Position numbers and translations under genes: made by a program | Assembly: GCA_964019135.1 (NCBI GenBank) | Contig: CAXHSH010000579.1 | Location: forward strand, 1 to 64,000 | Reading direction: 5' to 3' | From: Arenicola marina | Taxonomy: Eukaryota > Annelida > Polychaeta > Arenicolidae | Length of the DNA: 64,000 bases | Notes under the pieces: model-generated | Told to the model about the DNA's origin: nothing | What the model saw: only the letters and a program-made list of their open reading frames with translations | Databases searched by the model: none | Shown: positions 534 through 64,000 of the stretch, piece by piece | Layout: the number at the start of each line of letters is the position of its first letter | Position numbering within the stretch: the first letter of the stretch is position 1

Positions 534-653
534 ATCTACGGCCATACCAGATTGAAAGCACCGGTTATCGTCCGATCACCGAAGTTAAGCAACGTCGGGC
601 CCGGTTAGTACTTGGATGGGTGACCGCCTGGGAATACCGGGTGCTGTAGAATT
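534..653 (+). rRNA. 5S: 5S rRNA gene, unit 2 (type IV, C34A)
   Basis: First complete copy. 5S rRNA is part of the large ribosomal subunit, where it binds ribosomal proteins L5 and L11. Secondary structure by eye: helix I pairs residues 2-9 with 110-117, helix II pairs 14-21 with 57-65 around a bulged C63, helix V pairs 67-71 with 104-108, and loop D is a GUGA tetraloop (87-90) closed by G86-C91. The start A1 was chosen by alignment with the animal 5S start; residue 1 is normally G, and A1 faces A118 here, so the terminal pair is lost. Type IV residues G17 and A18 face G61 and C60, giving two mismatches in helix II. C34A lies in loop C and is shared only with units 6 and 16. T7 terminator. Confidence 0.97.
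583..630 (+). promoter_or_regulatory. Internal Pol III promoter (box A, IE, box C), shown for unit 2
   Basis: By the positions known for animal type 1 Pol III promoters, box A is residues 50-64 (583-597), the intermediate element 67-72 (600-605) and box C 80-97 (613-630). TFIIIA binds here. The same block is in every unit. Copies with C69A/T, G86A or C91A change the intermediate element or box C as well as the RNA. Confidence 0.8.
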
Positions 654-658
654 TTTTT
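652..658 (+). terminator. Pol III oligo-T terminator, shown for unit 2
   Basis: T7 directly after the 3' strand of helix I. A second run (T6 at 675-680; T5 in units with gcttttt) lies about 17 bp further on in each spacer and can act as a backup. Across the array the first run is T7, T8, T9, T5-C-T or T3-C-T3. Confidence 0.9.
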
Positions 659-1163
659 GCCGGTATCTTTGTTGTTTTTTAGGGGAAAACAATCGTAATA
701 ATCCGATGAGCCGCAAACAATTATTAGCCTGATGCGTAGGATGTCAGAGCGTTTGAAATGGTGACGCACCCTCCTGCTCGGTCCGTGGCTAATGATGATT
801 CAAGGGAGAAAAACACTTGCGGCTCTTGCGATTGGGAATGGCCGCGGCTCACATAATATTGAAGGTACAGAGCTGGGACCGGTTTCAAACGACGGGGAAA
901 GGTAAAGTGTAGCGATAAGGATTGCTATTGGTTAAGTGGGTCGAGAATTTACGGCGCTAGAGTTTGCTGTAACGGACCACCCCTTTTCATCCCGTTACAA
1001 ATGATTAGTGCACGGCGAAATCTCACAGGCCCGCGATGGTTTGAGTATCGACGTTTGCTGAAGGGGTGCCACGTTTCTTATACAAATGCGTGCGGCGGCT
1101 GCTTATCATGTCAGTTGAACGTGTCCATGTCATTTTGTAAGTCGAAGGTGGCGTTCATACGAC
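654..1163 (+). other. Typical intergenic spacer
   Basis: A 510-bp spacer, representative of the array. In order it holds the terminator tail and backup T-run, a short inverted repeat region (gatgcgt ... acgcatc in many units, imperfect in this one), a gccgcggc palindrome, the cttaatattga motif (cataatattga here) that is the SINE target in other units, a CCCCTTTTC tract that could stop Pol III coming from upstream, and the AT-rich -30 motif. An open frame covers its last 163 bp and runs into the rRNA. No gene is seen. Confidence 0.8.
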
Positions 1164-1283
1164 ATCTACGGCCATACCAGGTTGAAAGCACCGGTTCTCG
1201 TCCGATCACCGAAGTTAAGCAACGTCGGGCCCGGTTAGTACTTGGATGGGTGACCGCCTGGGAATACCGGGTGCTGTAGAATT
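1164..1283 (+). rRNA. 5S: 5S rRNA gene, unit 3 (type III)
   Basis: G17 faces G61 in helix II; no other change seen. T7 terminator. Its spacer is of the cataatattg, aagtgt kind. Confidence 0.97.
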
Positions 1284-1793
1284 TTTTTGCCGGTATCTTT
1301 GTTGTTTTTTAGGGGAAAACAATCGTAATAATCCTATGAGCCGCAAGCAATTATTAGCCTGATGCGTAGGATGTCAGAGCGTTTGAAATGGTGACGCATC
1401 CTCCTGCTCGGTCCGTGGCTAATGATGATTCAAGGGAGAAAAACACTTGCGGCTCTTGCGATTGGGAATGGCCGCGGCTCACATAATATTGAAGGTACAG
1501 AGCTGGGACCAGTTTCAAACGACGGGGAAAGGTAAAGTGTAGCGATAAGGATTGCTATTGGTTAAGTGGGTCGAGAATTTCCGGCGCTAGAGGTTGCTGT
1601 AACGGACCACCCCTTTTCATCCCGTTACAAATGATTAGTGCACGGCGAAATCTCACAGGCCCGCGATGGTGTGAGTATCGACGTTTGCTGAAGGGGTGCC
1701 ACGTTTCTTATACAAATGCGTGCGGCGGCTGCTTATCATGTCAGTTGAACGTGTCCATGTCATTTTGTAAGTCGAAGGTGGCGTTCATACGAC

Positions 1794-1913
1794 ATCTACG
1801 GCCATACCAGGTTGAAAGCACCGGTTCTCGTCCGATCACCGAAGTTAAGCAACGTCGGGCCCGGTTAGTACTTGGATGGGTGACCGCCTGGGAATACCGG
1901 GTGCTGTAGAATT
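1794..1913 (+). rRNA. 5S: 5S rRNA gene, unit 4 (type III)
   Basis: G17-G61 clash only. T7 terminator. The preceding spacer has ccagtttc, tttccgg and gtgtgag, a combination shared with units 8 and 18. Confidence 0.97.
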
Positions 1914-2122
1914 TTTTTGCCGGTATCTTTGTTGTTTTTTAGGGGTAAACAATCGTAATAATCCGATGAGCCGCAAACAATTATTAGCCTGATGCGTAGG
2001 ATGTCAGAGCGTTTGAAATGGTGACGCATCCTCCTGCTCGGTCCGTGGCTAATGATGATTCAAGGGAGAAAAACACTTGCGGCTCTTGCGATTGGGAATG
2101 GCCGCGGCTCACTTAATATTGA

Positions 2123-2310
2123 GGGGGCCTCCCTGGTGTAGTGGTTAGCGCACTAGACCGCAGATCAATAGGTCCTGGGTTCGAATCCGGGCTCGGGCAC
2201 CTAATCTGGGGCATGTTTCATTCCTTCATCCTTCATCGTCTCGGGAGGTTACTTGGCCCAATTTAGCCTGTATGTGCACAAAAGTGGCCTAAAACACCAA
2301 CATTCCATTC
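2123..2310 (+). mobile_element. tRNA-derived SINE, copy 1, in the spacer before unit 5
   Basis: A 188-bp insertion with the target-site duplication cttaatattga on both sides (2112-2122 and 2311-2321). The head (2127-2199) has a perfect Pol III box A, TGGTGTAGTGG (2134-2144), and box B, GGTTCGAATCC (2178-2188). Only four of seven acceptor pairs form and the anticodon stem is broken, so it is not a working tRNA. The 3' half with a GCA anticodon resembles tRNA-Cys. The body has no similarity I recognise. The tail ends in ATTCC repeats, and there is no poly-A. It has the same orientation as the 5S genes. Family not recognised. Confidence 0.9.
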
Positions 2311-2622
2311 CTTAATATTGAAGGTACAGAGCTGGGACCGGTTTCAAACGACGGGGAAAGGTCAAATGTAGCGATAAGGATTGCTATTGGTTAAGTGGGT
2401 CGAGAATTTACGGCGCTAGAGGTTGATGTAACGGACCACCCCTTTTCATCCCGTTACAAATGATTAGTGCACGGCGAAATCTCACAGGCCCGCGATGGTT
2501 TGGGTATCGACGTTTGCTGAAGGGGTGCCACGTTTCTTATACAAATGCGTGCGGCGGCTGCTTATCATGTCAGTTGAACGTGTCCATGTCATTTTGTAAG
2601 TCGAAGGTGGCGTTCATACGAC

Positions 2623-2742
2623 ATCTACGGCCATACTACGTTGAAAGCACCGGTTCCCGTCCGATCACCGAAGTTAAGCAACGTCGGGCCCGGTTAGTAC
2701 TTGGATGGGTGACCGCCTGGGAATACCGGGTGCTGTAGAATT
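2623..2742 (+). rRNA. 5S: 5S rRNA gene, unit 5 (type II)
   Basis: T15 makes a wobble with G64 and C17 pairs with G61, so helix II is complete. C35 in loop C. T8 terminator. First gene after SINE copy 1; the spacer has the rare gtcaaatg. Confidence 0.97.
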
Positions 2743-3253
2743 TTTTTTGCCGGTATCTTTGTTGTTTTTTAGGGGAAAACAATCGTAATAATCCGATGAG
2801 CCGCAAACAATTATTAGCCTGATGCGTAGGATGTCCGAGCGTTTGAAATGGTGACGCATCCTCCTGCTCGGTCCGTGGCTAATGATGATTCAAGGGAGAA
2901 AAACACTTGCGGCTCTTGCGATTGGGAATGGCCGCGGCTCACTTAATATTGAAGGTACAGAGCTGGGACCGGTTTCAAACGACGGGGAAAGGTAACATGT
3001 GGCGATAAGGATTGCTATTGGTTAAGTGGGTCGAGAATTTACGGCGCTAGATGTTGCTGTAACGGACCACCCCTTTTCATCCCGTTACAAATGATTAGTG
3101 CACGGCGAAATCTCACAGGCCCGCGATGGTTTGGGTATCGACGTTTGCTGATGGGGTGCCACGTTTCTTATACAAATGCGTGCGGCGGCTGCTTATCATG
3201 TCAGTTGAACGTGTCCATGTCATTTTGTAAGTCGAAGGTGGCGTTCATACGAC

Positions 3254-3373
3254 ATCTACGGCCATACCAGATTGAAAGCACCGGTTATCGTCCGATCACC
3301 GAAGTTAAGCAACGTCGGGCCCGGTTAGTACTTGGATGGGTGACCGCCTGGGAATACCGGGTGCTGTAGAATT
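3254..3373 (+). rRNA. 5S: 5S rRNA gene, unit 6 (type IV, C34A)
   Basis: Duplicate of unit 2, with two helix II mismatches and A34 in loop C. T7 terminator. The spacer has gtggcgataagg, unlike that of unit 2. Confidence 0.97.
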
Positions 3374-3883
3374 TTTTTGCCGGTATCTTTGTTGTTTTTT
3401 AGGGGAAAACAATCGTAATAATCCGATGAGCCGCAAACAATTATTAGCCTGATGCGTAGGATGTCAGAGCGTTTGAAATGGTGACGCACCCTCCTGCTCG
3501 GTCCGTGGCTAATGATGATTCAAGGGAGAAAAACACTTGCGGCTCTTGCGATTGGGAATGGCCGCGGCTCACATAATATTGAAGGTACAGAGCTGGGACC
3601 GGTTTCAAACGACGGGGAAAGGTAAAGTGTAGCGATAAGGATTGCTATTGGTTAAGTGGGTCGAGAATTTACGGCGCTAGAGTTTGCTGTAACGGACCAC
3701 CCCTTTTCATCCCGTTACAAATGATTAGTGCACGGCGAAATCTCACAGGCCCGCGATGGTTTGAGTATCGACGTTTGCTGAAGGGGTGCCACGTTTCTTA
3801 TACAAATGCGTGCGGCGGCTGCTTATCATGTCAGTTGAACGTGTCCATGTCATTTTGTAAGTCGAAGGTGGCGTTCATACGAC

Positions 3884-4003
3884 ATCTACGGCCATACCAG
3901 GTTGAAAGCACCGGTTCTCGTCCGATCACCGAAGTTAAGCAACGTCGGGCCCGGTTAGTACTTGGATGGGTGACCGCCTGGGAATACCGGGTGCTGTAGA
4001 ATT
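3884..4003 (+). rRNA. 5S: 5S rRNA gene, unit 7 (type III)
   Basis: Duplicate of unit 3. G17-G61 clash only. T7 terminator. Confidence 0.97.
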
Positions 4004-4513
4004 TTTTTGCCGGTATCTTTGTTGTTTTTTAGGGGAAAACAATCGTAATAATCCTATGAGCCGCAAGCAATTATTAGCCTGATGCGTAGGATGTCAGAGC
4101 GTTTGAAATGGTGACGCATCCTCCTGCTCGGTCCGTGGCTAATGATGATTCAAGGGAGAAAAACACTTGCGGCTCTTGCGATTGGGAATGGCCGCGGCTC
4201 ACATAATATTGAAGGTACAGAGCTGGGACCAGTTTCAAACGACGGGGAAAGGTAAAGTGTAGCGATAAGGATTGCTATTGGTTAAGTGGGTCGAGAATTT
4301 CCGGCGCTAGAGGTTGCTGTAACGGACCACCCCTTTTCATCCCGTTACAAATGATTAGTGCACGGCGAAATCTCACAGGCCCGCGATGGTGTGAGTATCG
4401 ACGTTTGCTGAAGGGGTGCCACGTTTCTTATACAAATGCGTGCGGCGGCTGCTTATCATGTCAGTTGAACGTGTCCATGTCATTTTGTAAGTCGAAGGTG
4501 GCGTTCATACGAC

Positions 4514-4633
4514 ATCTACGGCCATACCAGGTTGAAAGCACCGGTTCTCGTCCGATCACCGAAGTTAAGCAACGTCGGGCCCGGTTAGTACTTGGATGGG
4601 TGACCGCCTGGGAATACCGGGTGCTGTAGAATT
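4514..4633 (+). rRNA. 5S: 5S rRNA gene, unit 8 (type III)
   Basis: Duplicate of unit 4. G17-G61 clash only. T7 terminator. Followed by the spacer with SINE copy 2. Confidence 0.97.
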
Positions 4634-4842
4634 TTTTTGCCGGTATCTTTGTTGTTTTTTAGGGGTAAACAATCGTAATAATCCGATGAGCCGCAAACAA
4701 TTATTAGCCTGATGCGTAGGATGTCAGAGCGTTTGAAATGGTGACGCATCCTCCTGCTCGGTCCGTGGCTAATGATGATTCAAGGGAGAAAAACACTTGC
4801 GGCTCTTGCGATTGGGAATGGCCGCGGCTCACTTAATATTGA

Positions 4843-5030
4843 GGGGGCCTCCCTGGTGTAGTGGTTAGCGCACTAGACCGCAGATCAATAGGTCCTGGGT
4901 TCGAATCCGGGCTCGGGCACCTAATCTGGGGCATGTTTCATTCCTTCATCCTTCATCGTCTCGGGAGGTTACTTGGCCCAATTTAGCCTGTATGTGCACA
5001 AAAGTGGCCTAAAACACCAACATTCCATTC
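4843..5030 (+). mobile_element. tRNA-derived SINE, copy 2, before unit 9
   Basis: Identical by eye to copy 1, with the same duplication (4832-4842 and 5031-5041). Box A 4854-4864, box B 4898-4908. It arose by duplication of the 2720-bp block, not by a new insertion. Confidence 0.9.
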
Positions 5031-5342
5031 CTTAATATTGAAGGTACAGAGCTGGGACCGGTTTCAAACGACGGGGAAAGGTCAAATGTAGCGATAAGGA
5101 TTGCTATTGGTTAAGTGGGTCGAGAATTTACGGCGCTAGAGGTTGATGTAACGGACCACCCCTTTTCATCCCGTTACAAATGATTAGTGCACGGCGAAAT
5201 CTCACAGGCCCGCGATGGTTTGGGTATCGACGTTTGCTGAAGGGGTGCCACGTTTCTTATACAAATGCGTGCGGCGGCTGCTTATCATGTCAGTTGAACG
5301 TGTCCATGTCATTTTGTAAGTCGAAGGTGGCGTTCATACGAC

Positions 5343-5462
5343 ATCTACGGCCATACTACGTTGAAAGCACCGGTTCCCGTCCGATCACCGAAGTTAAGCA
5401 ACGTCGGGCCCGGTTAGTACTTGGATGGGTGACCGCCTGGGAATACCGGGTGCTGTAGAATT
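5343..5462 (+). rRNA. 5S: 5S rRNA gene, unit 9 (type II)
   Basis: Duplicate of unit 5. Helix II complete, C35. T8 terminator. Confidence 0.97.
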
Positions 5463-5973
5463 TTTTTTGCCGGTATCTTTGTTGTTTTTTAGGGGAAAAC
5501 AATCGTAATAATCCGATGAGCCGCAAACAATTATTAGCCTGATGCGTAGGATGTCCGAGCGTTTGAAATGGTGACGCATCCTCCTGCTCGGTCCGTGGCT
5601 AATGATGATTCAAGGGAGAAAAACACTTGCGGCTCTTGCGATTGGGAATGGCCGCGGCTCACTTAATATTGAAGGTACAGAGCTGGGACCGGTTTCAAAC
5701 GACGGGGAAAGGTAACATGTGGCGATAAGGATTGCTATTGGTTAAGTGGGTCGAGAATTTACGGCGCTAGATGTTGCTGTAACGGACCACCCCTTTTCAT
5801 CCCGTTACAAATGATTAGTGCACGGCGAAATCTCACAGGCCCGCGATGGTTTGGGTATCGACGTTTGATGATGGGGTGCTACGTTTCTTATACAAATGCG
5901 TGCGGCGGCTGCTTATCATGTCAGTTGAACGTGTCCATGTCATTTTGTAAGTCGAAGGTGGCGTTCATACGAC

Positions 5974-6093
5974 ATCTACGGCCATACCAGATTGAAAGCA
6001 CCGGTTCTCGTCCGATCACCGAAGTTAAGCAACGTCGGGCCCGGTTAGTACTTGGATGGGTGACCGCCTGGGAATACCGGGTGCTGTAGAATT
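5974..6093 (+). rRNA. 5S: 5S rRNA gene, unit 10 (type IV)
   Basis: G17 and A18 give two helix II mismatches; residue 34 is the normal C. T7 terminator. Its spacer carries gtttgatgatgggg and gctacg, shared only with units 20 and 50. Confidence 0.97.
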
Positions 6094-6603
6094 TTTTTGC
6101 CGGTATCTTTGTTGTTTTTTAGGGGAAAACAATCGTAATAATCCGATGAGCCGCAAACAATTATTAGCCTGATGCGTAGGATGTCAGAGCGTTTGAAACG
6201 GTGACGCACCCTCCTGCTCGGTCCGTGGCTAATGATGATTCAAGGGAGAAAAACACTTGCGGCTCTTGCGATTGGGAATGGCCGCGGCTCACATAATATT
6301 GAAGGTACAGAGCTGGGACCGGTTTCAAACGACGGGGAAAGGTAAAGTGTAGCGATAAGGATTGCTATTGGTTAAGTGGGTCGAGAATTTACGGCGCTAG
6401 AGTTTGCTGTAACGGACCACCCCTTTTCATCCCGTTACAAATGATTAGTGCACGGCGAAATCTCACAGGCCCGCGATGGTTTGAGTATCGACGTTTGCTG
6501 AAGGGGTGCCACGTTTCTTATACAAATGCGTGCGGCGGCTGCTTATCATGTCAGTTGAACGTGTCCATGTCATTTTGTAAGTCGAAGGTGGCGTTCATAC
6601 GAC

Positions 6604-6723
6604 ATCTACGGCCATACCAGGTTGAAAGCACCGGTTCTCGTCCGATCACCGAAGTTAAGCAACGTCGGGCCCGGTTAGTACTTGGATGGGTGACCGCCTG
6701 GGAATACCGGGTGCTGTAGAATT
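6604..6723 (+). rRNA. 5S: 5S rRNA gene, unit 11 (type III)
   Basis: G17-G61 clash only. T7 terminator; the backup run is followed by agtgg instead of agggg. Confidence 0.97.
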
Positions 6724-7233
6724 TTTTTGCCGGTATCTTTGTTGTTTTTTAGTGGAAAACAATCGTAATAATCCTATGAGCCGCAAGCAATTATTAGCCT
6801 GATGCGTAGGATGTCAGAGCGTTTGAAATGGTGACGCATCCTCCTGCTCGGTCCGTGGCTAATGATGATTCAAGGGAGAAAAACACTTGCGGCTCTTGCG
6901 ATTGGGAATGGCCGCGGCTCACATAATATTGAAGGTACAGAGCTGGGACCAGTTTCAAACGACGGGGAAAGGTAAAGTGTAGCGATAAGGATTGCTATTG
7001 GTTAAGTGGGTCGAGAATTTCCGGCGCTAGAGGTTGCTGTAACGGACCACCCCTTTTCATCCCGTTACAAATGATTAGTGCACGGCGAAATCTCACAGGC
7101 CCGCGATGGTGTGAGTATCGACGTTTGCTGAAGGGGTGCCACGTTTCTTATACAAATGCGTGCGGCGGCTGCTTATCATGTCAGTTGAACGTGTCCATGT
7201 CATTTTGTAAGTCGAAGGTGGCGTTAATACGAC

Positions 7234-7353
7234 ATCTACGGCCATACCAGGTTGAAAGCACCGGTTCTCGTCCGATCACCGAAGTTAAGCAACGTCGGGC
7301 CCGGTTAGTACTTGGATGGGTGAACGCCTGGGAATACCGGGTGCTGTAGAATT
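7234..7353 (+). rRNA. 5S: 5S rRNA gene, unit 12 (type III, C91A)
   Basis: Besides the helix II clash, C91A destroys the G86-C91 pair that closes the loop D tetraloop and changes box C of the promoter. The upstream base at -7 is A (gttaatac). T7 terminator. Probably impaired. Confidence 0.96.
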
Positions 7354-7863
7354 TTTTTGCCGGTATCTTTGTTGTTTTTTAGGGGTAAAAAATCGTAATA
7401 ATCCGATGAGCCGCAAACAATTATTAGCCTGATGCGTAGGATGTCAGAGCGTTTGAAATGGTGACGCATCCCCCTGCTCGGTCCGTGGCTAATGATGATT
7501 CAAGGGAGAAAAACACTTGCGGCTCTTGCGATTGGGAATGGCCGCGGCTCACATAATATTGAAGGTACAGAGCTGGGACCGGTTTCAAACGACGGGGAAA
7601 GGTAAAATGTAGCGATAAGGATTGCTATTGGTTAAGTGGGTCGAGAATTTACGGCGCTAGAGGTTGATGTAACGGACCACCCCTTTTCATCCCGTTACAA
7701 ATGATTAGTGCACGGCGAAATCTCACAGGCCCGCGATGGTTTGGGTATCGACGTTTGCTGAAGGGGTGCCACGTTTCTTATACAAATGCGTGCGGCGGCT
7801 GCTTATCATGTCAGTTGAACGTGTCCATGTCATTTTGTAAGTCGAAGGTGGCGTTCATACGAC

Positions 7864-7983
7864 ATCTACGGCCATACCACGTTGAAAGCACCGGTTCCCG
7901 TCCGACCACCGAAGTTAAGCAACGTCGGGCCCGGTTAGTACTTGGATGGGTGACCGCCTGGGAATACCGGGTGTTGTAGAATT
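7864..7983 (+). rRNA. 5S: 5S rRNA gene, unit 13 (type I, C35, T43C, C111T)
   Basis: C17 with C15 gives a complete helix II, but C35 is the type II allele, so this gene looks like a type I/II recombinant. T43C is in loop C. C111T turns the helix I pair G8-C111 into a G-U wobble. T8 terminator. Confidence 0.96.
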
Positions 7984-8495
7984 TTTTTTGCCGGTATCTT
8001 TGTAATTTTTTAGGGGAAAACAATCGCAATAATCCGATGAGCCGCAAACAATTATTAGCCTGATGCGTAGGATGTCCGAGCGTTTGAAATGATGACGCAT
8101 CCTCCTGCTCGGTCCGTGGCTAATGATGATTCAAGGGAGAAAAACACTTGCGGCTCTTGCGATTGGGAATGGCCGCGGCTCACTTAATATTGAAGGTACA
8201 GAGCTGGGACCGGTTTCAAACGACGGGGAAAGGTAAAATGTAGCGATAAGGATTGCTATTGGTTAAGTGGGTCGAGAATTTACGGCGCTAGAGGTTGATG
8301 TAACGGACCACCCCTTTTCATCCCATTACAAATGATTAGTGCACGGCGATATTCTCACAGGCCCGCGATGGTTTGGGTATCGACGTTTGCTGAAGGGGTG
8401 CCACGTTTCTTATACAAATGCGTGCGGCGGCTGCTTATCATGTCAGTTGAACGTGTCCATGTCATTTTGTAAGTCGAAGGTGGCGTTCATACGAC

Positions 8496-8615
8496 ATCTA
8501 CGGCCATACCACGTTGAAAGCACCGGTTCTCGTCCGATCACCGAAGTTAAGCAACGTCGGGCCCGGTTAGTACTTGGATGGGTGACCGCCTGGGAATACC
8601 GGGTGCTGTAGAATT
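8496..8615 (+). rRNA. 5S: 5S rRNA gene, unit 14 (type I)
   Basis: Canonical copy with helix II, loop D, loop E and helix V intact. T7 terminator. The spacer has an extra T (cgatattctc for cgaaatctc) about 147 bp upstream. Confidence 0.97.
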
Positions 8616-8824
8616 TTTTTGCCGGTATCTTTGTTGCTTTTTAGGGGAAAACAATCGTAATAATCCGATGAGCCGCAAACAGTTATTAGCCTGATGCGTA
8701 GGATGTCATGGCGTTTGAAATGGTGACGCATCCTCCTGCTCGGTCCGTGGCTAATGATGATACAAGGGAGAAAAACACTTGCGGCTCTTGCGATTGGGAA
8801 TGGCCGCGGCTCACTTAATATTGA

Positions 8825-9012
8825 GGGGGCCTCCCTGGTGTAGTGGTTAGCGCACTAGACCGCAGATCAATAGGTCCTGGGTTCGAATCCGGGCTCGGGC
8901 ACCTAATCTGGGGCATGTTTCATTCCTTCATCCTTCATCGTCTCGGGAGGTTACTTGGCCCAATTTAGCCTGTATGTGCACAAAAGTGGCCTAAAACACC
9001 AACATTCCATTC
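8825..9012 (+). mobile_element. tRNA-derived SINE, copy 3, before unit 15
   Basis: Identical by eye to copy 1; duplication at 8814-8824 and 9013-9023. Here the flank to its left is of the catggcg, gatacaagg kind found with type I units, while the right flank is the usual gtcaaatg. So it sits at a recombination junction. Confidence 0.9.
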
Positions 9013-9324
9013 CTTAATATTGAAGGTACAGAGCTGGGACCGGTTTCAAACGACGGGGAAAGGTCAAATGTAGCGATAAGGATTGCTATTGGTTAAGTGG
9101 GTCGAGAATTTACGGCGCTAGAGGTTGATGTAACGGACCACCCCTTTTCATCCCGTTACAAATGATTAGTGCACGGCGAAATCTCACAGGCCCGCGATGG
9201 TTTGGGTATCGACGTTTGCTGAAGGGGTGCCACGTTTCTTATACAAATGCGTGCGGCGGCTGCTTATCATGTCAGTTGAACGTGTCCATGTCATTTTGTA
9301 AGTCGAAGGTGGCGTTCATACGAC

Positions 9325-9444
9325 ATCTACGGCCATACTACGTTGAAAGCACCGGTTCCCGTCCGATCACCGAAGTTAAGCAACGTCGGGCCCGGTTAGT
9401 ACTTGGATGGGTGACCGCCTGGGAATACCGGGTGCTGTAGAATT
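9325..9444 (+). rRNA. 5S: 5S rRNA gene, unit 15 (type II)
   Basis: Helix II complete, C35. T8 terminator. Same 3' flank as unit 5. Confidence 0.97.
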
Positions 9445-9955
9445 TTTTTTGCCGGTATCTTTGTTGTTTTTTAGGGGAAAACAATCGTAATAATCCGATG
9501 AGCCGCAAACAATTATTAGCCTGATGCGTAGGATGTCCGAGCGTTTGAAATGGTGACGCATCCTCCTGCTCGGTCCGTGGCTAATGATGATTCAAGGGAG
9601 AAAAACACTTGCGGCTCTTGCGATTGGGAATGGCCGCGGCTCACTTAATATTGAAGGTACAGAGCTGGGACCGGTTTCAAACGACGGGGAAAGGTAACAT
9701 GTGGCGATAAGGATTGCTATTGGTTAAGTGGGTCGAGAATTTACGGCGCTAGATGTTGCTGTAACGGACCACCCCTTTTCATCCCGTTACAAATGATTAG
9801 TGCACGGCGAAATCTCACAGGCCCGCGATGGTTTGGGTATCGACGTTTGCTGATGGGGTGCCACGTTTCTTATACAAATGCGTGCGGCGGCTGCTTATCA
9901 TGTCAGTTGAACGTGTCCATGTCATTTTGTAAGTCGAAGGTGGCGTTCATACGAC

Positions 9956-10075
9956 ATCTACGGCCATACCAGATTGAAAGCACCGGTTATCGTCCGATCA
10001 CCGAAGTTAAGCAACGTCGGGCCCGGTTAGTACTTGGATGGGTGACCGCCTGGGAATACCGGGTGCTGTAGAATT
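9956..10075 (+). rRNA. 5S: 5S rRNA gene, unit 16 (type IV, C34A)
   Basis: Third copy of the unit 2/6 allele. Two helix II mismatches and A34. T7 terminator. Confidence 0.97.
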
Positions 10076-53859: not shown

Positions 53860-53979
53860 ATCTACGGCCATACCACGTTGAAAGCACCGGTTCTCGTCCG
53901 ATCACCGAAGTTAAGCAACGTCGGGCCCGGTTACTACTTGGATGGGTGACCGCCTGGGAATACCGGGTGCTGTAGAATT
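53860..53979 (+). rRNA. 5S: 5S rRNA gene, unit 85 (type I, G75C)
   Basis: Counterpart of unit 55 with the loop E change, but with the normal G at -3. T7 terminator. Confidence 0.96.
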
Positions 53980-54489
53980 TTTTTGCCGGTATCTTTGTTG
54001 CTTTTTAGGGGAAAACAATCGTAATAATCCGATGAGCCGCAAACAGTTATTAGCCTGATGCGTAGGATGTCATGGCGTTTGAAATGGTGACGCATCCTCC
54101 TGCTCGGTCCGTGGCTAATGATGATACAAGGGAGAAAAACACTTGCGGCTCTTGCGATTGGGAATGGCCGCGGCTCACTTAATATTGAAGGTACAGAGCT
54201 GGGACCGGTTTCCAACGACGGGGAAAGGTAAAATGTAGCGATAAGGATTGCTATTGGTTAAGTGGGTCGAGAATTTACGGCGCTAGAGGTTGATGTAACG
54301 GACCACCCCTTTTCATCCCATTACAAATGATTAGTGCACGGCGAAATCTCACAGGCCCGCGATGGTTTGAGTATCGACGTTTGCTGAAGGGGTGCCACGT
54401 TTCTTATACAAATGCGTGCGGCGGCTGCTTATCATGTCAGTTGAACGTGTCCATGTCATTTTGTAAGTCGAAGGTTGCGTTCATACGAC

Positions 54490-54609
54490 ATCTACGGCCA
54501 TACCAGGTTGAAAGCACCGGTTCTCGTCCGATCACCGAAGTTAAGCAACGTCGGGCCCGGTTAGTACTTGGATGGGTGACCGCCTGGGAATACCGGGTGC
54601 TGTAGATTT
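54490..54609 (+). rRNA. 5S: 5S rRNA gene, unit 86 (type III, A118T)
   Basis: Counterpart of unit 56. T9 terminator. Confidence 0.97.
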
Positions 54610-55120
54610 TTTTTTGCCGGTATCTTTGTTGTTTTTTAGGGGAAAACAATCGTAATAATCCGATGAGCCGCAAACAGTTATTAGCCTGATGCGTAGGATG
54701 TCAGAGCGTTTGAAATGGTGACGCATCCTCCTGCTCGGTCCGTGGCTAATGATGATTCAAGGAAGAAAAACACTTGCTGCTCTGGCGATTGGGAATGGCC
54801 GCGGCTCACTTAATATTGAAGGTACAGAGCTGGAACCGGTTTCAAACGACGGGGAAAGGTAACATGTAGCGATAAGGATTGCTATTGGTTAAGTGGGTCG
54901 AGAATTTACGGCGCTAGATGTTGCTGTAACGGACCACCCCTTTTCATCCCGTTACAAATGATTAGAGCACGGCGAAATCTCACAGGCCCGCGATGGTTTG
55001 GGTATCGACGTTTGCTGAAGGGGTGCCACGTTTCTTATACAAATGCGTGCGGCGGCTGCTTATCATGTCAGTTGAACGTGTCCATGTCATTTTGTAAGTC
55101 GAAGGTGGCGTTCATACGAC

Positions 55121-55240
55121 ATCTACGGCCATACCACGTTGAAAGCACCGGTTCTCGTCCGATCACCGAAGTTAAGCAACGTCGGGCCCGGTTCGTACTT
55201 GGATGGGTGACCGCCTGGGAATACCGGGTGCTGTAGAATT
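55121..55240 (+). rRNA. 5S: 5S rRNA gene, unit 87 (type I, A74C)
   Basis: Counterpart of unit 57 with the loop E change. The T7 run is followed by ccgg, one G lost, giving a 629-bp unit. Confidence 0.96.
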
Positions 55241-55749
55241 TTTTTCCGGTATCTTTGTTGCTTTTTAGGGGAAAACAATCGTAATAATCCGATGAGCCGC
55301 AAACAGTTATTAGCCTGATGCGTAGGATGTCATGGCGTTTGAAATGGTGACGCATCCTCCTGCTCGGTCCGTGGCTAATGATGATACAAGGGAGAAAAAC
55401 ACTTGCGGCTCTTGCGATTGGGAATGGCCGCGGCTCACTTAATATTGAAGGTACAGAGCTGGGACCGGTTTCAAACGACGGGGAAAGGTAAAATGTAGCG
55501 ATAAGGATTGCTATTGGTTTAGTGGGTCGAGAATTTACGGCGCTAGAGGTTGATGTAACGGACCACCCCTTTTCATCCCGTTACAAATGATTAGTGCACG
55601 GCGAAATCTCACAGGCCCGCGATGGTTTGGGTATCGACGTTTGCTGAAGGGGTGCCACGTTTCTTATACAAATGCGTGCGGCGGCTGCTTATCATGTCAG
55701 TTGAACGTGTCCATGTCATTTTGTAAGTCGAAGGTGGCGTTTATACGAC

Positions 55750-55869
55750 ATCTACGGCCATACCAGGTTGAAAGCACCGGTTCTCGTCCGATCACCGAAG
55801 TTAAGCAACGTCGGGCCCGGTTAGTACTTGGATGAGTGAACGCCTGGGAATACCGGGTGCTGTAGAATT
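55750..55869 (+). rRNA. 5S: 5S rRNA gene, unit 88 (type III, G86A, C91A)
   Basis: Counterpart of unit 58, with the A86-A91 mismatch. T7 terminator. The spacer has ggtttagtggg. Candidate pseudogene. Confidence 0.95.
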
Positions 55870-56379
55870 TTTTTGCCGGTATCTTTGTTGCTTTTTAGGG
55901 GAAAACAATCGTAATAATCCGATGAGCCGCAAACAGTTATTAGCCTGATGCGTAGGATGTCAGAGCGTTTGAAATGGTGACGCATCCTCCTGCTCGGTCC
56001 GTGGCTAATGATGATTCAAGGGAGAAAAACACTTGCGGCTCTTGCGATTGGGAATGGCCGCGGCTCACTTAATATTGAAGGTACAGAGCTGGGACCGGTT
56101 TCAAACGACGGGGAAAGGTAAAATGTAACGATAAGGATTGCTATTGGTTAAGTGGGTCGAGAATTTACGGCGCTAGAGGTTGCTGTAACGGACCACCCCT
56201 TTTCATCCCGTTACAAATGATTAGTGCACGGCGAAATCTCACAGGCCCGCGATGGTTTGGGTATCGACGTTTGCTGAAGGGGTGCCACGTTTCTTATACA
56301 AATGCGTGCGGCGGCTGCTTATCATGTCAGTTGAACGTGTCCATGTCATTTTGTAAGTCGAAGGTGGCGTTCATACGAC

Positions 56380-56499
56380 ATCTACGGCCATACCAGATTG
56401 AAAGCACCGGTTCTCGTCCGATCACCGAAGTTAAGCAACGTCGGGCCCGGTTAGTACTTGGATGGGTGACCGCCTGGGAATACCGGGTGCTGTAGATTT
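56380..56499 (+). rRNA. 5S: 5S rRNA gene, unit 89 (type IV, A118T)
   Basis: Counterpart of unit 59. T9 terminator. Confidence 0.97.
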
Positions 56500-57010
56500 T
56501 TTTTTGCCGGTATCTTTGTTGTTTTTTAGGGGAAAACAATCGTAATAATCCGATGAGCCGCAAACAGTTATTAGCCTGATGCGTAGGATGTCAGAGCGTT
56601 TGAAATGGTGACGCATCCTCCTGCTCGGTCCGTGGCTATTGATGATTCAAGGAAGAAAAACACTTGCGGCTCTTGCGATTGGGAATGGCCGCGGCTCACT
56701 TAATATTGAAGGTACAGAGCTGGAACCGGTTTCAAACGACGGGGAAAGGTAACATGTAGCGATAAGGATTGCTATTGGTTAAGTGGGTCGAGAATTTACG
56801 GCGCTAGATGTTGCTGTAACGGACCACCCCTTTTCATCCCGTTACAAATGATTAGTGCACGGCGAAATCTCACAGGCCCGCGATGGTTTGGGTATCGACG
56901 TTTGCTGAAGGGGTGCCACGTTTCTTATACAAATGCGTGCGGCGGCTGCTTATCATGTCAGTTGAACGTGTCCATGTCATTTTGTAAGTCGAAGGTGGCG
57001 TTCATACGAC

Positions 57011-57130
57011 ATCTACGGCCATACCAGATTGAAAGCACCGGTTCTCGTCCGATCACCGAAGTTAAGCAACGTCGGGCCCGGTTAGTACTTGGATGGGTGA
57101 CCGCCTGGGAATACCGGGTGCTGTAGAATT
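57011..57130 (+). rRNA. 5S: 5S rRNA gene, unit 90 (type IV)
   Basis: Counterpart of unit 60, but the spacer has gctattgg, so the gctactgg change in 60/65 arose after the 11-kb duplication or was converted away here. T5-C-T terminator. Confidence 0.97.
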
Positions 57131-57640
57131 TTTCTGCCGGTATCTTTGTTGCTTTTTAGGGGAAAACAATCGTAATAATCCGATGAGCCGCAAACAGTTA
57201 TTAGCCTGATGCGTAGGATGTCAGAGCGTTTGAAATGGTGACGCGTCCTCCTGCTCGGTCCGTGGCTAATGATGATTCAAGGGAGAAAAACAATTGCGGC
57301 TCTTGCGATTGGGAATGGCCGCGGCTCACTTAATATTGAAGGTACAGAGCTGGGACCGGTTTCAAACGACGGGGAAAGGTAAAATGTAGCGATAAGGATT
57401 GCTATTGGTTAAGTGGGTCGAGAATTTACGGCGCTAGAGGTTGATGTAACGGACCACCCCTTTTCATCCCGTTACAAATGATTAGTGCACGGCGAAATCT
57501 CACAGGCCCGCGATGGTTTGGGTATCGACGTTTGCTGAAGGGGTGCCACGTTTCTTATACAAATGCGTGCGGCGGCTGCTTATCATGTCAGTTGAACGTG
57601 TCCATGTCATTTTGTAAGTCGAAGGTTGCGTTCATACGAC

Positions 57641-57760
57641 ATCTACGGCCATACCAGGTTGAAAGCACCGGTTCTCGTCCGATCACCGAAGTTAAGCAAC
57701 GTCGGGCCCGGTTAGTACTTGGATGGGTGACCGCCTGGGAATACCGGGTGCTGTAGATTT
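57641..57760 (+). rRNA. 5S: 5S rRNA gene, unit 91 (type III, A118T)
   Basis: Counterpart of unit 61, with ctattggtt instead of ctattagtt. T9 terminator. Confidence 0.97.
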
Positions 57761-58271
57761 TTTTTTGCCGGTATCTTTGTTGTTTTTTAGGGGAAAACAA
57801 TCGTAATAATCCGATGAGCCGCAAACAGTTATTAGCCTGATGCGTAGGATGTCAGAGCGTTTGAAATGGTGACGCATCCTCCTGCTCGGTCCGTGGCTAT
57901 TGATGATTCAAGGAAGAAAAACACTTGCGGCTCTTGCGATTGGGAATGGCCGCGGCTCACTTAATATTGAAGGTACAGAGCTGGAACCGGTTTCAAACGA
58001 CGGGGAAAGGTAACATGTAGCGATAAGGATTGCTATTGGTTAAGTGGGTTGAGAATTTACGGCGCTAGATGTTGCTGTAACGGACCACCCCTTTTCATCC
58101 CGTTACAAATGATTAGTGCACGGCGAAATCTCACAGGCCCGCGATGGTTTGGGTATCGACGTTTGCTGAAGGGGTGCCACGTTTCTTATACAAATGCGTG
58201 CGGCGGCTGCTTATCATGTCAGTTGAACGTGTCCATGTCATTTTGTAAGTCGAAGGTGGCGTTCATATGAC

Positions 58272-58391
58272 ATCTACGGCCATACCACGTTGAAAGCACC
58301 GGTTCTCGTCCGATCACCGAAGTTAAGCAACGTCGGGCCCGGTTAGTACTTGGATGGGTGACCGCCTGGGAATACCGGGTGCTGTAGAATT
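58272..58391 (+). rRNA. 5S: 5S rRNA gene, unit 92 (type I, broken terminator)
   Basis: Canonical RNA with T at -4. The terminator is T3-C-T3, below the four T residues Pol III normally needs. The backup T5 run lies about 20 bp downstream. Confidence 0.96.
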
Positions 58392-58396
58392 TCTTT
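58390..58396 (+). terminator. Interrupted Pol III terminator of unit 92
   Basis: The sequence is tttcttt, where the related unit 62 has T7. Readthrough would give a 3' extension ending at the T5 run near 58413-58417. Confidence 0.8.
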
Positions 58397-58901
58397 GCCG
58401 GTATCTTTGTTGCTTTTTAGGGGAAAACAATCGTAATAATCCGATGAGCCGCAAACAGTTATTAGCCTGATGCGTAGGATGTCATGGCGTTTGAAATGGT
58501 GACGCATCCTCCTGCTCGGTCCGTGGCTAATGATGATACAAGGGAGAAAAACACTTGCGGCTCTTGCGATTGGGAATGGCCGCGGCTCACTTAATATTGA
58601 AGGTACAGAGCTGGGACCGGTTTCAAACGACGGGGAAAGGTAAAATGTAGCGATAAGAATTGCTATTGGTTAAGTGGGTCGAGAATTTACGGCGCTAGAG
58701 GTTGATGTAACGGACCACCCCTTTTCATCCCGTTACAAATGATTAGTGCACGGCGAAATCTCACAGGCCCGCGATGGTTTGGGTATCGACGTTTGCTGAA
58801 GGGGTGCCACGTTTCTTATACAAATGCGTGCGGCGGCTGCTTATCATGTCAGTTGAACGTGTCCATGTCATTTTGTAAGTCGAAGGTGGCGTTCATACGA
58901 C

Positions 58902-59021
58902 ATCTACGGCCATACCACGTTGAAAGCACCGGTTCTCGTCCGATCACCGAAGTTAAGCAACGTCGGGCCCGGTTCGTACTTGGATGGGTGACCGCCTGGG
59001 AATACCGGGTGCTGTAGAATT
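58902..59021 (+). rRNA. 5S: 5S rRNA gene, unit 93 (type I, A74C), extra unit
   Basis: Has the gene and terminator of unit 87 (A74C, T7 followed by ccgg) but the upstream spacer of the unit 68/99 kind (gataagaattg). It has no counterpart in the first 11-kb copy and is the junction of the 3781-bp duplication. Confidence 0.96.
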
Positions 59022-59530
59022 TTTTTCCGGTATCTTTGTTGCTTTTTAGGGGAAAACAATCGTAATAATCCGATGAGCCGCAAACAGTTATTAGCCTGAT
59101 GCGTAGGATGTCATGGCGTTTGAAATGGTGACGCATCCTCCTGCTCGGTCCGTGGCTAATGATGATACAAGGGAGAAAAACACTTGCGGCTCTTGCGATT
59201 GGGAATGGCCGCGGCTCACTTAATATTGAAGGTACAGAGCTGGGACCGGTTTCAAACGACGGGGAAAGGTAAAATGTAGCGATAAGGATTGCTATTGGTT
59301 TAGTGGGTCGAGAATTTACGGCGCTAGAGGTTGATGTAACGGACCACCCCTTTTCATCCCGTTACAAATGATTAGTGCACGGCGAAATCTCACAGGCCCG
59401 CGATGGTTTGGGTATCGACGTTTGCTGAAGGGGTGCCACGTTTCTTATACAAATGCGTGCGGCGGCTGCTTATCATGTCAGTTGAACGTGTCCATGTCAT
59501 TTTGTAAGTCGAAGGTGGCGTTTATACGAC

Positions 59531-59650
59531 ATCTACGGCCATACCAGGTTGAAAGCACCGGTTCTCGTCCGATCACCGAAGTTAAGCAACGTCGGGCCCG
59601 GTTAGTACTTGGATGAGTGAACGCCTGGGAATACCGGGTGCTGTAGAATT
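59531..59650 (+). rRNA. 5S: 5S rRNA gene, unit 94 (type III, G86A, C91A)
   Basis: Duplicate of unit 88 and counterpart of unit 63. T7 terminator. The spacer has ggtttagtggg as in 88. Candidate pseudogene. Confidence 0.95.
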
Positions 59651-60160
59651 TTTTTGCCGGTATCTTTGTTGCTTTTTAGGGGAAAACAATCGTAATAATC
59701 CGATGAGCCGCAAACAGTTATTAGCCTGATGCGTAGGATGTCAGAGCGTTTGAAATGGTGACGCATCCTCCTGCTCGGTCCGTGGCTAATGATGATTCAA
59801 GGGAGAAAAACACTTGCGGCTCTTGCGATTGGGAATGGCCGCGGCTCACTTAATATTGAAGGTACAGAGCTGGGACCGGTTTCAAACGACGGGGAAAGGT
59901 AAAATGTAACGATAAGGATTGCTATTGGTTAAGTGGGTCGAGAATTTACGGCGCTAGAGGTTGCTGTAACGGACCACCCCTTTTCATCCCGTTACAAATG
60001 ATTAGTGCACGGCGAAATCTCACAGGCCCGCGATGGTTTGGGTATCGACGTTTGCTGAAGGGGTGCCACGTTTCTTATACAAATGCGTGCGGCGGCTGCT
60101 TTTCATGTCAGTTGAACGTGTCCATGTCATTTTGTAAGTCGAAGGTGGCGTTCATACGAC

Positions 60161-60280
60161 ATCTACGGCCATACCAGATTGAAAGCACCGGTTCTCGTCC
60201 GATCACCGAAGTTAAGCAACGTCGGGCCCGGTTAGTACTTGGATGGGTGACCGCCTGGGAATACCGGGTGCTGTAGATTT
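60161..60280 (+). rRNA. 5S: 5S rRNA gene, unit 95 (type IV, A118T)
   Basis: Duplicate of unit 89. T9 terminator. The spacer has gcttttcatg for gcttatcatg. Confidence 0.97.
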
Positions 60281-60791
60281 TTTTTTGCCGGTATCTTTGT
60301 TGTTTTTTAGGGGAAAACAATCGTAATAATCCGATGAGCCGCAAACAGTTATTAGCCTGATGCGTAGGATGTCAGAGCGTTTGAAATGGTGACGCATCCT
60401 CCTGCTCGGTCCGTGGCTATTGATGATTCAAGGAAGAAAAACACTTGCGGCTCTTGCGATTGGGAATGGCCGCGGCTCACTTAATATTGAAGGTACAGAG
60501 CTGGAACCGGTTTCAAACGACGGGGAAAGGTAACATGTAGCGATAAGGATTGCTATTGGTTAAGTGGGTCGAGAATTTACGGCGCTAGATGTTGCTGTAA
60601 CGGACCACCCCTTTTCATCCCGTTACAAATGATTAGTGCACGGCGAAATCTCACAGGCCCGCGATGGTTTGGGTATCGACGTTTGCTGAAGGGGTGCCAC
60701 GTTTCTTATACAAATGCGTGCGGCGGCTGCTTATCATGTCAGTTGAACGTGTCCATGTCATTTTGTAAGTCGAAGGTGGCGTTCATACGAC

Positions 60792-60911
60792 ATCTACGGC
60801 CATACCAGATTGAAAGCACCGGTTCTCGTCCGATCACCGAAGTTAAGCAACGTCGGGCCCGGTTAGTACTTGGATGGGTGACCGCCTGGGAATACCGGGT
60901 GCTGTAGAATT
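60792..60911 (+). rRNA. 5S: 5S rRNA gene, unit 96 (type IV)
   Basis: Duplicate of unit 90. T5-C-T terminator. Confidence 0.97.
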
Positions 60912-61421
60912 TTTCTGCCGGTATCTTTGTTGCTTTTTAGGGGAAAACAATCGTAATAATCCGATGAGCCGCAAACAGTTATTAGCCTGATGCGTAGGAT
61001 GTCAGAGCGTTTGAAATGGTGACGCGTCCTCCTGCTCGGTCCGTGGCTAATGATGATTCAAGGGAGAAAAACAATTGCGGCTCTTGCGATTGGGAATGGC
61101 CGCGGCTCACTTAATATTGAAGGTACAGAGCTGGGACCGGTTTCAAACGACGGGGAAAGGTAAAATGTAGCGATAAGGATTGCTATTGGTTAAGTGGGTC
61201 GAGAATTTACGGCGCTAGAGGTTGATGTAACGGACCACCCCTTTTCATCCCGTTACAAATGATTAGTGCACGGCGAAATCTCACAGGCCCGCGATGGTTT
61301 GGGTATCGACGTTTGCTGAAGGGGTGCCACGTTTCTTATACAAATGCGTGCGGCGGCTGCTTATCATGTCAGTTGAACGTGTCCATGTCATTTTGTAAGT
61401 CGAAGGTTGCGTTCATACGAC

Positions 61422-61541
61422 ATCTACGGCCATACCAGGTTGAAAGCACCGGTTCTCGTCCGATCACCGAAGTTAAGCAACGTCGGGCCCGGTTAGTACT
61501 TGGATGGGTGACCGCCTGGGAATACCGGGTGCTGTAGATTT
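61422..61541 (+). rRNA. 5S: 5S rRNA gene, unit 97 (type III, A118T)
   Basis: Duplicate of unit 91. T9 terminator. Confidence 0.97.
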
Positions 61542-62052
61542 TTTTTTGCCGGTATCTTTGTTGTTTTTTAGGGGAAAACAATCGTAATAATCCGATGAGC
61601 CGCAAACAGTTATTAGCCTGATGCGTAGGATGTCAGAGCGTTTGAAATGGTGACGCATCCTCCTGCTCGGTCCGTGGCTATTGATGATTCAAGGAAGAAA
61701 AACACTTGCGGCTCTTGCGATTGGGAATGGCCGCGGCTCACTTAATATTGAAGGTACAGAGCTGGAACCGGTTTCAAACGACGGGGAAAGGTAACATGTA
61801 GCGATAAGGATTGCTATTGGTTAAGTGGGTCGAGAATTTACGGCGCTAGATGTTGCTGTAACGGACCACCCCTTTTCATCCCGTTACAAATGATTAGTGC
61901 ACGGCGAAATCTCACAGGCCCGCGATGGTTTGGGTATCGACGTTTGCTGAAGGGGTGCCACGTTTCTTATACAAATGCGTGCGGCGGCTGCTTATCATGT
62001 CAGTTGAACGTGTCCATGTCATTTTGTAAGTCGAAGGTGGCGTTCATATGAC

Positions 62053-62172
62053 ATCTACGGCCATACCACGTTGAAAGCACCGGTTCTCGTCCGATCACCG
62101 AAGTTAAGCAACGTCGGGCCCGGTTAGTACTTGGATGGGTGACCGCCTGGGAATACCGGGTGCTGTAGAATT
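62053..62172 (+). rRNA. 5S: 5S rRNA gene, unit 98 (type I, broken terminator)
   Basis: Duplicate of unit 92 with the same T3-C-T3 terminator. Canonical RNA; T at -4. Confidence 0.96.
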
Positions 62173-62177
62173 TCTTT
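62171..62177 (+). terminator. Interrupted Pol III terminator of unit 98
   Basis: The sequence tttcttt replaces T7. Shared with unit 92 through the 3781-bp duplication. Confidence 0.8.
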
Positions 62178-62682
62178 GCCGGTATCTTTGTTGCTTTTTA
62201 GGGGAAAACAATCGTAATAATCCGATGAGCCGCAAACAGTTATTAGCCTGATGCGTAGGATGTCATGGCGTTTGAAATGGTGACGCATCCTCCTGCTCGG
62301 TCCGTGGCTAATGATGATACAAGGGAGAAAAACACTTGCGGCTCTTGCGATTGGGAATGGCCGCGGCTCACTTAATATTGAAGGTACAGAGCTGGGACCG
62401 GTTTCAAACGACGGGGAAAGGTAAAATGTAGCGATAAGAATTGCTATTGGTTAAGTGGGTCGAGAATTTACGGCGCTAGAGGTTGATGTAACGGACCACC
62501 CCTTTTCATCCCGTTACAAATGATTAGTGCACGGCGAAATCTCACAGGCCCGCGATGGTTTGGGTATCGACGTTTGCTGAAGGGGTGCCACGTTTCTTAT
62601 ACAAATGCGTGCGGCGGCTGTTTATCATGTCAGTTGAACGTGTCCATGTCATTTTGTAAGTCGAAGGTGGCGTTCATACGAC

Positions 62683-62802
62683 ATCTACGGCCATACCAGA
62701 TTGAAAGCACCGGTTCTCGTCCGATCACCGAAGTTAAGCAACGTCGGGCCCGGTTAGCACTTGGATGGGTGACCGCCTGGGAATACCGGGTGCTGTAGAA
62801 TT
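62683..62802 (+). rRNA. 5S: 5S rRNA gene, unit 99 (type IV, T76C)
   Basis: Third copy of the unit 68 allele, with the loop E change and ggctgtttatc in the spacer. T5-C-T terminator. Confidence 0.96.
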
Positions 62803-63312
62803 TTTCTGCCGGTATCTTTGTTGTTTTTTAGGGGAAAACAATCGTAATAATCCGATGAGCCGCAAACAATTATTAGCCTGATGCGTAGGATGTCAGAGCG
62901 TTTGAAATGGTGACGCGTCCTCCTGCTCGGTCCGTGGCTAATGATGATTCAAGGGAGAAAAACACTTGCGGCTCTTGCGATTGGGAATGGCCGCGGCTCA
63001 CTTAATATTGAAGGTACAGAGCTGGGACCGGTTTCAAACGACGGGGAAAGGTAAAATGTAGCGATAAGGATTGCTATTGGTTAAGTGGTTCGAGAATTTA
63101 CGGCGCTAGAGGTTGCTGTAACGGACCACCCCTTTTCATCCCGTTACAAATGATTAGTGCACGGCGAAATCTCACAGGCCCGCGATGGTTTGGGTATCGA
63201 CGTTTGCTGAAGGGGTGCCACGTTTCTTATACAAATGCGTGCGGCGGCTGCTTATCATGTCAGTTGAACGTGTCCATGTCATTTTGTAAGTCGAAGGTGG
63301 CGTTCATACAAC

Positions 63313-63432
63313 ATCTACGGCCATACTACGTTGAAAGCACCGGTTCCCGTCCGATCACCGAAGTTAAGCAACGTCGGGCCCGGTTAGTACTTGGATGGGT
63401 GACCGCCTGGGAATACCGGGTGCTGTAGAATT
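63313..63432 (+). rRNA. 5S: 5S rRNA gene, unit 100 (type II)
   Basis: Third copy of the unit 69 allele. A at -3. T8 terminator. Confidence 0.97.
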
Positions 63433-63943
63433 TTTTTTGCCGGTATCTTTGTTGTTTTTTAGGGGAAAACAATCGTAATAATCCGATGAGCCGCAAACAA
63501 TTATTAGCCTGATGCGTAGGATGTCCGAGCGTTTGAAATGGTGACGCATCCTCCTGCTCGGTCCGTGGCTAATGATGATTCAAGGAAGAAAAACACTTGC
63601 GGCTCTTGCGATTGGGAATGGCCGCGGCTCACTTAATATTGAAGGTACAGAGCTGGGACCGGTTTCAAACGACGGGGAAAGGTAAAATGTAGCGATAAGG
63701 ATTGCTATTGGTTAAGTGGGTCGAGAATTTACGGCGCTAGAGGTTGATGTAACGGACCACCCCTTTTCATCCCGTTACAAATGATTAGTGCACGGCGAAA
63801 TCTCACAGGCCCGCGATGGTTTGGGTATCGACGTTTGCTGAAGGGGTGCCACGTTTCTTATACAAATGCATGCGGCGGCTGCTTATCATGTCAGTTGAAC
63901 GTGTCCATGTCATTTTGTAAGTCGAAGGTGGCGTTTATACGAC

Positions 63944-64000
63944 ATCTACGGCCATACCAGGTTGAAAGCACCGGTTCTCGTCCGATCACCGAAGTTAAGC
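63944..64000 (+). rRNA. 5S: 5S rRNA gene, unit 101 (5' fragment, type III)
   Basis: Residues 1-57, cut by the window edge. The upstream tgcatgcgg and gtttatac marks match units 70 and 77, so C91A is expected beyond the edge. Confidence 0.95.

Follow-up and report, generated by a model that had tools for sequence, protein, structure and literature searches.

In the polychaete Arenicola marina, a 64,000-nucleotide stretch of DNA (hereafter the window; positions 1–64000 of the 84,000-bp contig C322, one of 762 in an 867-Mb assembly) carries a tandem array of 5S ribosomal RNA (rRNA) genes, most of which have a G at residue 17 that faces G61 across helix II. We consider it probable that these G17 genes are locally amplified, relaxed variants in a redundant 5S family, in which the 3′ strand of the helix is held by box A, and that they represent no new kind of ribosome. 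Four gene types occur in the array, which belongs to the class termed B below:

534–64000, + strand: class B 5S rDNA array of 100 genes, the last one cut; units mostly 629–635 bp
8496–8614, + strand: type I example (C17; helix II fully paired); Rfam 116.1 bits
2623–2741, + strand: type II example (U15, C17, C35; 17–61 paired); Rfam 115.2 bits
1164–1282, + strand: type III example (G17, G18); residue 17 at 1180, residue 61 at 1224; Rfam 111.5 bits
534–652, + strand: type IV example (G17, A18; here also A34); helix II strands at 549–554 and 590–595

With every gene counted, residue 17 is G in 64 and C in 36 of the 100 window copies; A18 is present in 23, invariably together with G17, and U15 in 18 of the 36 C17 copies and invariably together with C17. 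The opposite strand (residues 57–66) reads CAACGUCGGG in all 99 window copies that contain it. In the predicted fold of type I, which as modelled is the standard 5S structure, the pairs 16–62 to 21–57 are followed by a looped-out C63 and then by 15–64 and 14–65. A full canonical helix II is possible in types I and II and not in types III and IV (that is, in 64 of 100 copies), both of which lose the pair 17–61 and the latter additionally 18–60; the predicted energy of helix II alone is −8.6 kcal/mol in type I, −7.1 in type II, −5.4 in type III and −1.7 in type IV. The standard fold is the predicted minimum for type I and for the class A genes described below, and lies above the minimum by 2.2 (type II), 2.0 (type III) and 2.8 kcal/mol (type IV). 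A register-shifted pairing in type IV (17–63, 18–62) was considered as hidden compensation and rejected, as it arises in the constrained fold with an advantage of only 0.2 kcal/mol over the canonical remnant and at a pair probability of 0.007.

An incomplete helix II is a feature inside the 5S family and not by itself a bar to membership. Rfam finds all 100 genes on the + strand (99 whole, one cut at 63944) at 48.4 (the cut copy) to 116.8 bits, above the RF00001 gathering score of 38, with 116.1, 111.5 and 107.6 bits for the commonest forms of types I, III and IV. Truncations and indels typical of 5S pseudogenes are absent from the window, where all 99 whole matches span 119 bases and the full model; single-base indels were seen in some copies outside it, on contigs C437 and C97. 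Genes are spaced by 629–635 bp in 94 of 99 cases and by 829 bp in 5, a T run follows the gene in the printed sequence and in the unit alignment (as expected of a tandem unit), and the array continues past the window to a total of 125 genes on C322.

It is conceivable that G17 is simply neutral, its share of the RNA synthesized and used being equal to its share of the genes and one G–G mismatch being tolerated. The other pairs of helix II are retained in the constrained fold of type III, G17 copies have no clear surplus of further gene changes (a mean of 0.60 in 62 distinct G17 units versus 0.51 in 49 C17 units), and a G/A change at residue 61 is reported for some barnacle 5S sequences (PMC3215682); yet most of the predicted helix II energy is lost in type IV, and in Cardamine the major variant makes up 42–53% of the genes and a larger share of the transcripts (for example, 95% in C. 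amara, in the part of that report consulted; PMC13087485), a disparity that means that variants can be under-represented in RNA. We regard neutrality as unlikely.

The majority of mismatched copies is a property of the window and does not extend to the whole animal. Exact patterns for residues 8–29, which miss copies with any further change in these residues, matched 166 G17 and 985 C17 copies across the assembly (G17, 14% of 1,151), so that G17 amounts to about 14% of all copies and about 21% of class B. The original prediction had given the same window counts and the same lack of change at G61 and C60, with which our recount agrees; its statement that most 5S copies are mismatched holds for the window and fails genome-wide, and its proposal that the animal accepts a weakened helix II is not needed, given that 985 of the 1,151 exact-pattern copies are C17. 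G17 is concentrated in sub-arrays of class B. All 30 exact type IV matches lie on C322 (27) and C132 (3); of the 136 for type III, those among the matches listed fall on C322 (50), C132 (19), C105 (1) and C437 (30, between 56 and 120 kb). Read directly from the sequence, G17 is present in 77 of 125 copies on C322, 23 of 44 on C132, 1 of 15 on C105 and 7 of 16 in C437:70001–79900, and in none of the 147 copies read on C7 (90), C97 (8), C4 (2) and C437:195000–234600 (47); residue 17 is A in one and U in two of the C7 copies. The 5S pattern had no match among GTDB and IMG/VR contigs.

Arrays are difficult to assemble, and the round lengths of C322 (84,000 bp) and C437 (545,000 bp) would be expected of automatic contig breaking, which raises the question of an assembly or sequencing artefact. 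We judge this very improbable, as G17 is present on four contigs, where the changes linked to it differ (A18 on C322 and C132; C38 on C105 and in C437:70001–79900), and no whole units are shared among the compared pieces of C322, C132, C437:195000–234600, C97 and C105.

Two large classes of 5S genes and one small class were distinguished in this genome. Class A (335 copies by a gene-start pattern with at most 2 mismatches; contig C7) has a 547-bp unit and G1 in most genes; class B (793 copies, at most 3 mismatches; on at least C322, C132, C97, C105 and C437) has a 630-bp unit and A1; class C consists of three matches with A25 on C4 (C4:10084037, 10108347 and 10110052), two of which were read and score 120.1 and 118.3 bits, the highest values in a set of 47 scored copies. 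The absence of compensation can be followed across these classes, and a further feature is needed for this:

1213–1227, + strand: box A (residues 50–64) of the gene at 1164; contains the helix II 3′ strand (57–62) at 1220–1225

Box A is quoted as residues 50–64 for Donax and Xenopus (PMC6204057) and as residues 50–61 in another source (PMC3215682). Residues 57–62 are CAACGU in all 347 copies read, from all classes and out of roughly 1,130 in the genome (793 + 335 + 3), and changes on the 5′ side in these copies affect residues 14, 15, 17, 18 and 21. For variable sites in the gene, the spacer of the respective units served as the reference (219 units of class B and 86 of class A, long units excluded). 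In class B, box A has 0 of 15 sites variable where 6.2 are expected (Fisher P = 0.0004), residues 1–47 have 19 of 47 (19.4 expected), the intermediate element 4 of 6 (2.5 expected), and residues 65–97, which comprise the intermediate element and box C, 14 of 33 (13.6 expected). In class A, for which 69 of the 86 units come from near one array end, box A again has no variable site, residues 65–97 have 1 of 33 (7.4 expected), residues 50–97 have 1 of 48 (10.8 expected; P = 0.00014) and residues 1–47 have 11 of 47 (10.5 expected); of 18 class A genes located further in, 12 are identical to the reference throughout the core compared. Helix II of both classes thus has its 5′ strand in the drifting part of the gene and its 3′ strand in the fixed part, which in class B is reduced to box A. 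Compensation is therefore likely to be missing because residues 57–62 sit in the invariant box A, whereas the 5′ strand is not part of it and is as variable as the spacer. A weak literature search gave no title on this overlap as a cause of one-sided change; the point follows from the known coordinates of box A and helix II. A mutation hot spot in the 5′ strand was considered and rejected (4 of 8 sites variable in class B, 3.3 expected; 2 of 8 in class A, 1.8 expected).

Whether classes A and B are used differently is in our view the more interesting remaining question, and the region upstream of the gene bears on it:

1133–1141, + strand: TTTTGTAAG, at −31 to −23 of the gene at 1164; the place of the TATA-like element in classes A and C

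TATATAA lies near −30 in 57 of the 69 class A units counted and in none of 234 class B units, 229 of which have TTTTGTAAG. Outside the gene and about six following bases, blastn aligns nothing between one class A and one class B unit, and only a single 20-base match between class A and C4. Between −31 and −19, class A is identical to the two C4 copies at 11 and 10 of 13 bases, their spacers being otherwise unrelated, and 11 of 13 was reached in 2 of 5,000 shuffles; class A and class B agree there at 7 of 13 (not unusual, 0.226), and class B and class C at 8 of 13, at another place (0.071). On this comparison, classes A and C seem to have a promoter element in common, which would be missing or degenerate in B. 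A conserved upstream block in class B was a further candidate and was dropped: unit positions 573–614 have no variable site among window units, and the block vanished once other contigs were added, the longest invariant spacer run then being 11 bases, a length reached in 63% of shuffles.

These data permit a two-class system in which class A (with TATA and G1) and class B (with A1 and without TATA) serve different stages or cells. Class B RNA, including its G17 forms, would then be produced in large amounts (in the egg line, for instance), and a short-lived or stored pool would tolerate a relaxed helix II. Different spacers and upstream elements, as a dual system would have, do separate the two classes. 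Several differences between the mature RNAs, also to be expected, were not found, as the consensus genes of A and B differ at residues 1 and 118 only. Described oocyte and somatic 5S types differ much more than this. The size of both classes with their unrelated spacers, the TATA-region match of A with C (11 and 10 of 13, against 7 of 13 for B), the coincidence of the larger class with the variable intermediate element and box C, and the fixed box A of class B are in keeping with such a system, for which Xenopus (20,000 oocyte and 400 somatic genes) and zebrafish (2,330 maternal and 12 somatic genes) offer precedents (PMC5513064). Besides the near identity of the mature RNAs, however, an intermediate element and box C that vary at the spacer rate are odd for an actively used class, and most class B copies are C17 (166 G17 matches versus 793 gene starts), and we hold the two-class system to be rather unlikely as the explanation of G17.

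The percentage of G17 in the window stems from amplification and not from many separate mutations. The 99 complete window units comprise 61 distinct sequences, 35 of them with G17; exactly repeated blocks of at least two units hold 54 of the 99, the longest being a block of nine units at 2623 and 9325. Types I–IV are interspersed, with 52 runs of G17 or C17 along the array versus 46.9 in shuffled arrays (P = 0.16 for as many). On a spacer tree of class B (poorly resolved, with 12 of 147 inner branches starred), the states of residue 17 are explained by 12 changes versus about 49 for shuffled labels, so that G17 is clustered, with exchange between units; two sets of identical spacers that bear differing residues 17 are a sign of such exchange. 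A linked promoter difference between G17 and C17 copies was sought and not found, as residue 17 is associated with common variable sites up to 136 bp upstream at an r2 of at most 0.10 (134 distinct pairs on C322 and C132). Interspersion and the lack of upstream marking argue against stage-specific control among types I–IV, which the original prediction had envisaged after the model of frogs; a frog-like split, if there is any, is more likely between classes A and B. In C437:70001–79900, all 7 G17 copies (of 16) also have C38 and alternate, at intervals of one to three units, with copies that have the consensus sequence, C76 or U97; the lone G17 gene among 15 on C105 also has C38, a residue lacking from all 99 G17 units on C322 and C132. 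G17 therefore forms two groups, which have either separate origins or a single old one.

A bolder reading would be that the G17 RNA is a real second form, with class B expressed in a restricted setting such as an egg line that stores 5S RNA, and that a weakened helix II, its 3′ strand locked by box A, was amplified in both G17 groups (with A18 in one sub-array and with C38 in another) because it alters the binding of TFIIIA or uL18/RPL5. Taken together, these two propositions are quite improbable in our estimation; if true, helix II would be restricted to one-sided change by its overlap with the promoter.

Starting from what was observed directly (that is, the counts and their distribution, the invariance of box A, the spacer-level variation elsewhere in the gene and the block duplication), we favour the following scenario of locally amplified, relaxed variants. 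The window would be a sector of a large secondary class B, in a genome with more than 1,000 5S genes, and selection on single copies would be weak, presumably through redundancy. C17 would be the older state, and its change to G may have arisen on class B repeats, with A18 arising later inside one G17 group and C38 inside another; unequal crossing-over and block duplication may then have raised G17 locally to 77 of 125 copies on C322 and 23 of 44 on C132. Box A, as a part of the internal promoter, would have kept the 3′ residues unchanged, most plausibly through its promoter function, and the 5′ strand, outside the promoter, would have been left to drift. The G17 RNA would contribute little to ribosomes, whether through lower synthesis, poorer folding or failure to be assembled. 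The original prediction also suggested that most of the array may not be used, a proposal that the spacer-rate variation of residues 65–97 and the missing TATA element support in part.

Several points weigh against this scenario. The fold test does not single out G17, because type II, in which 17–61 is paired, also lies 2.2 kcal/mol above its minimum, and the lowest Rfam score among whole window copies is as high as 101.1. G17 copies show no clear excess of other gene changes, and decay by CpG deamination had to be rejected, CpG being undepleted (observed/expected ratios of 1.22–1.25 in C322, C132 and C437); these two findings speak for recent tolerated variation and against long-dead pseudogenes. 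Residues 1–47 and 65–97 of class B vary at the spacer rate, as would be expected of a pseudogene array, yet class B is not simply dead, as box A is fixed there too, and a weak constraint on its box C may exist (5 of 18 sites variable, 7.4 expected; P = 0.18). For the gene taken as one piece, the gene-to-spacer ratio of variable sites is 0.60 in class A (P = 0.036) and 0.66–0.76 in the class B pieces (none significant), a similarity that weakens the contrast between the classes and leaves the placement of sites as the difference, and the cuts at 48–64 and 65–97 were picked after a first look at the data. The absence of compensation applies to the 347 copies read and not to the whole genome. On C322 and C132, residue 17 is partly linked to sites in the spacer downstream of it (at unit position 213, r2 reaches 0.36), the C38-bearing second group might reflect a repeated success of G17, and the ancestry of C17 is suggested by parsimony from frequency rather than by a rooted tree.

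If locally amplified, relaxed variants are the correct explanation, the array indicates how much structural damage a redundant 5S family can carry and where the limit lies, namely at box A, the longest invariant stretch of class B; this limit would explain the one-sided change of helix II without invoking ribosome function. A1/G1 and residue 17 are clean tags with which the expression of the classes can be followed in small-RNA data of Arenicola marina.

The window and the other arrays contain the following further features and irregularities:

1282–1288, + strand: 3′-terminal T run of the gene at 1164; terminator for RNA polymerase III, judged by position
2123–2311, + strand: tRNA-derived short interspersed element (SINE), 189 bp, in a class B spacer; tRNA match of 22.6 bits, below the gathering score of 29

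The SINE is flanked by TTAATATTGA at 2113–2122 and 2312–2321 (a 10-bp target duplication), the array units that carry it measure 829 bp, and the same insertion recurs at 4843, 8825, 11545 and 31299 of the window and at C132:1426; it is copied along with the units. The same SINE family occurs at another place in a class A spacer (two units of 746 bp on C7). ARAGORN found no tRNA genes in the window. Units of 1057, 1485 and 1912 bp in C437:195000–234600 contain a 427-bp part of the spacer in one, two and three additional copies, which in the five long units examined come without an extra gene. Of 99 window genes, 15 have U118, which allows an A1–U118 pair; the other window genes lack that pair, and A1 would oppose A118 in most class B genes. 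Class A gene starts were also found at C7:17200400 and 17187194, about 90–105 kb outside the listed array start at 17.292 Mb, and the flank of the C97 array has one open reading frame of at least 120 amino acids.

Arrays of this kind have counterparts in several organisms, to the extent covered by the parts of the reports cited here. Pollicipes has several 5S types with very different spacers, many of its sequences lacking a TATA-like motif (PMC3215682), Tribolium has shortened copies scattered among whole 5S genes (PMC11202950), and Donax has a TATA-like motif near −28 (PMC6204057). With these, Arenicola marina shares a multi-type invertebrate 5S rDNA that evolves by birth-and-death and concerted evolution; it differs from what is described for them in that point variants of helix II are the majority in one sector, and in that the constraint on box A relative to the rest of the gene is measurable on long array stretches. 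The 5S rDNA of pikes is extremely amplified and has a block structure (PMC5437419), and blocks, mixed blocks and a large gene excess are common to both systems; whereas pike units are described as heavily methylated and with few gene changes, CpG is not depleted here and the gene varies. Stage-specific 5S genes are known in frog and zebrafish (PMC5513064), which likewise have 5S gene classes of unequal size; here, unlike in those accounts, the consensus genes of the classes are nearly identical and types I–IV do not occupy separate arrays. In Cardamine, the 5S genes are more diverse than the transcripts, one type making up 42–53% of the genes and being the major transcript (PMC13087485). The gene copies of Arenicola marina are similarly more diverse than one dominant RNA would need; Cardamine differs in being a plant, and its variants were measured in RNA.

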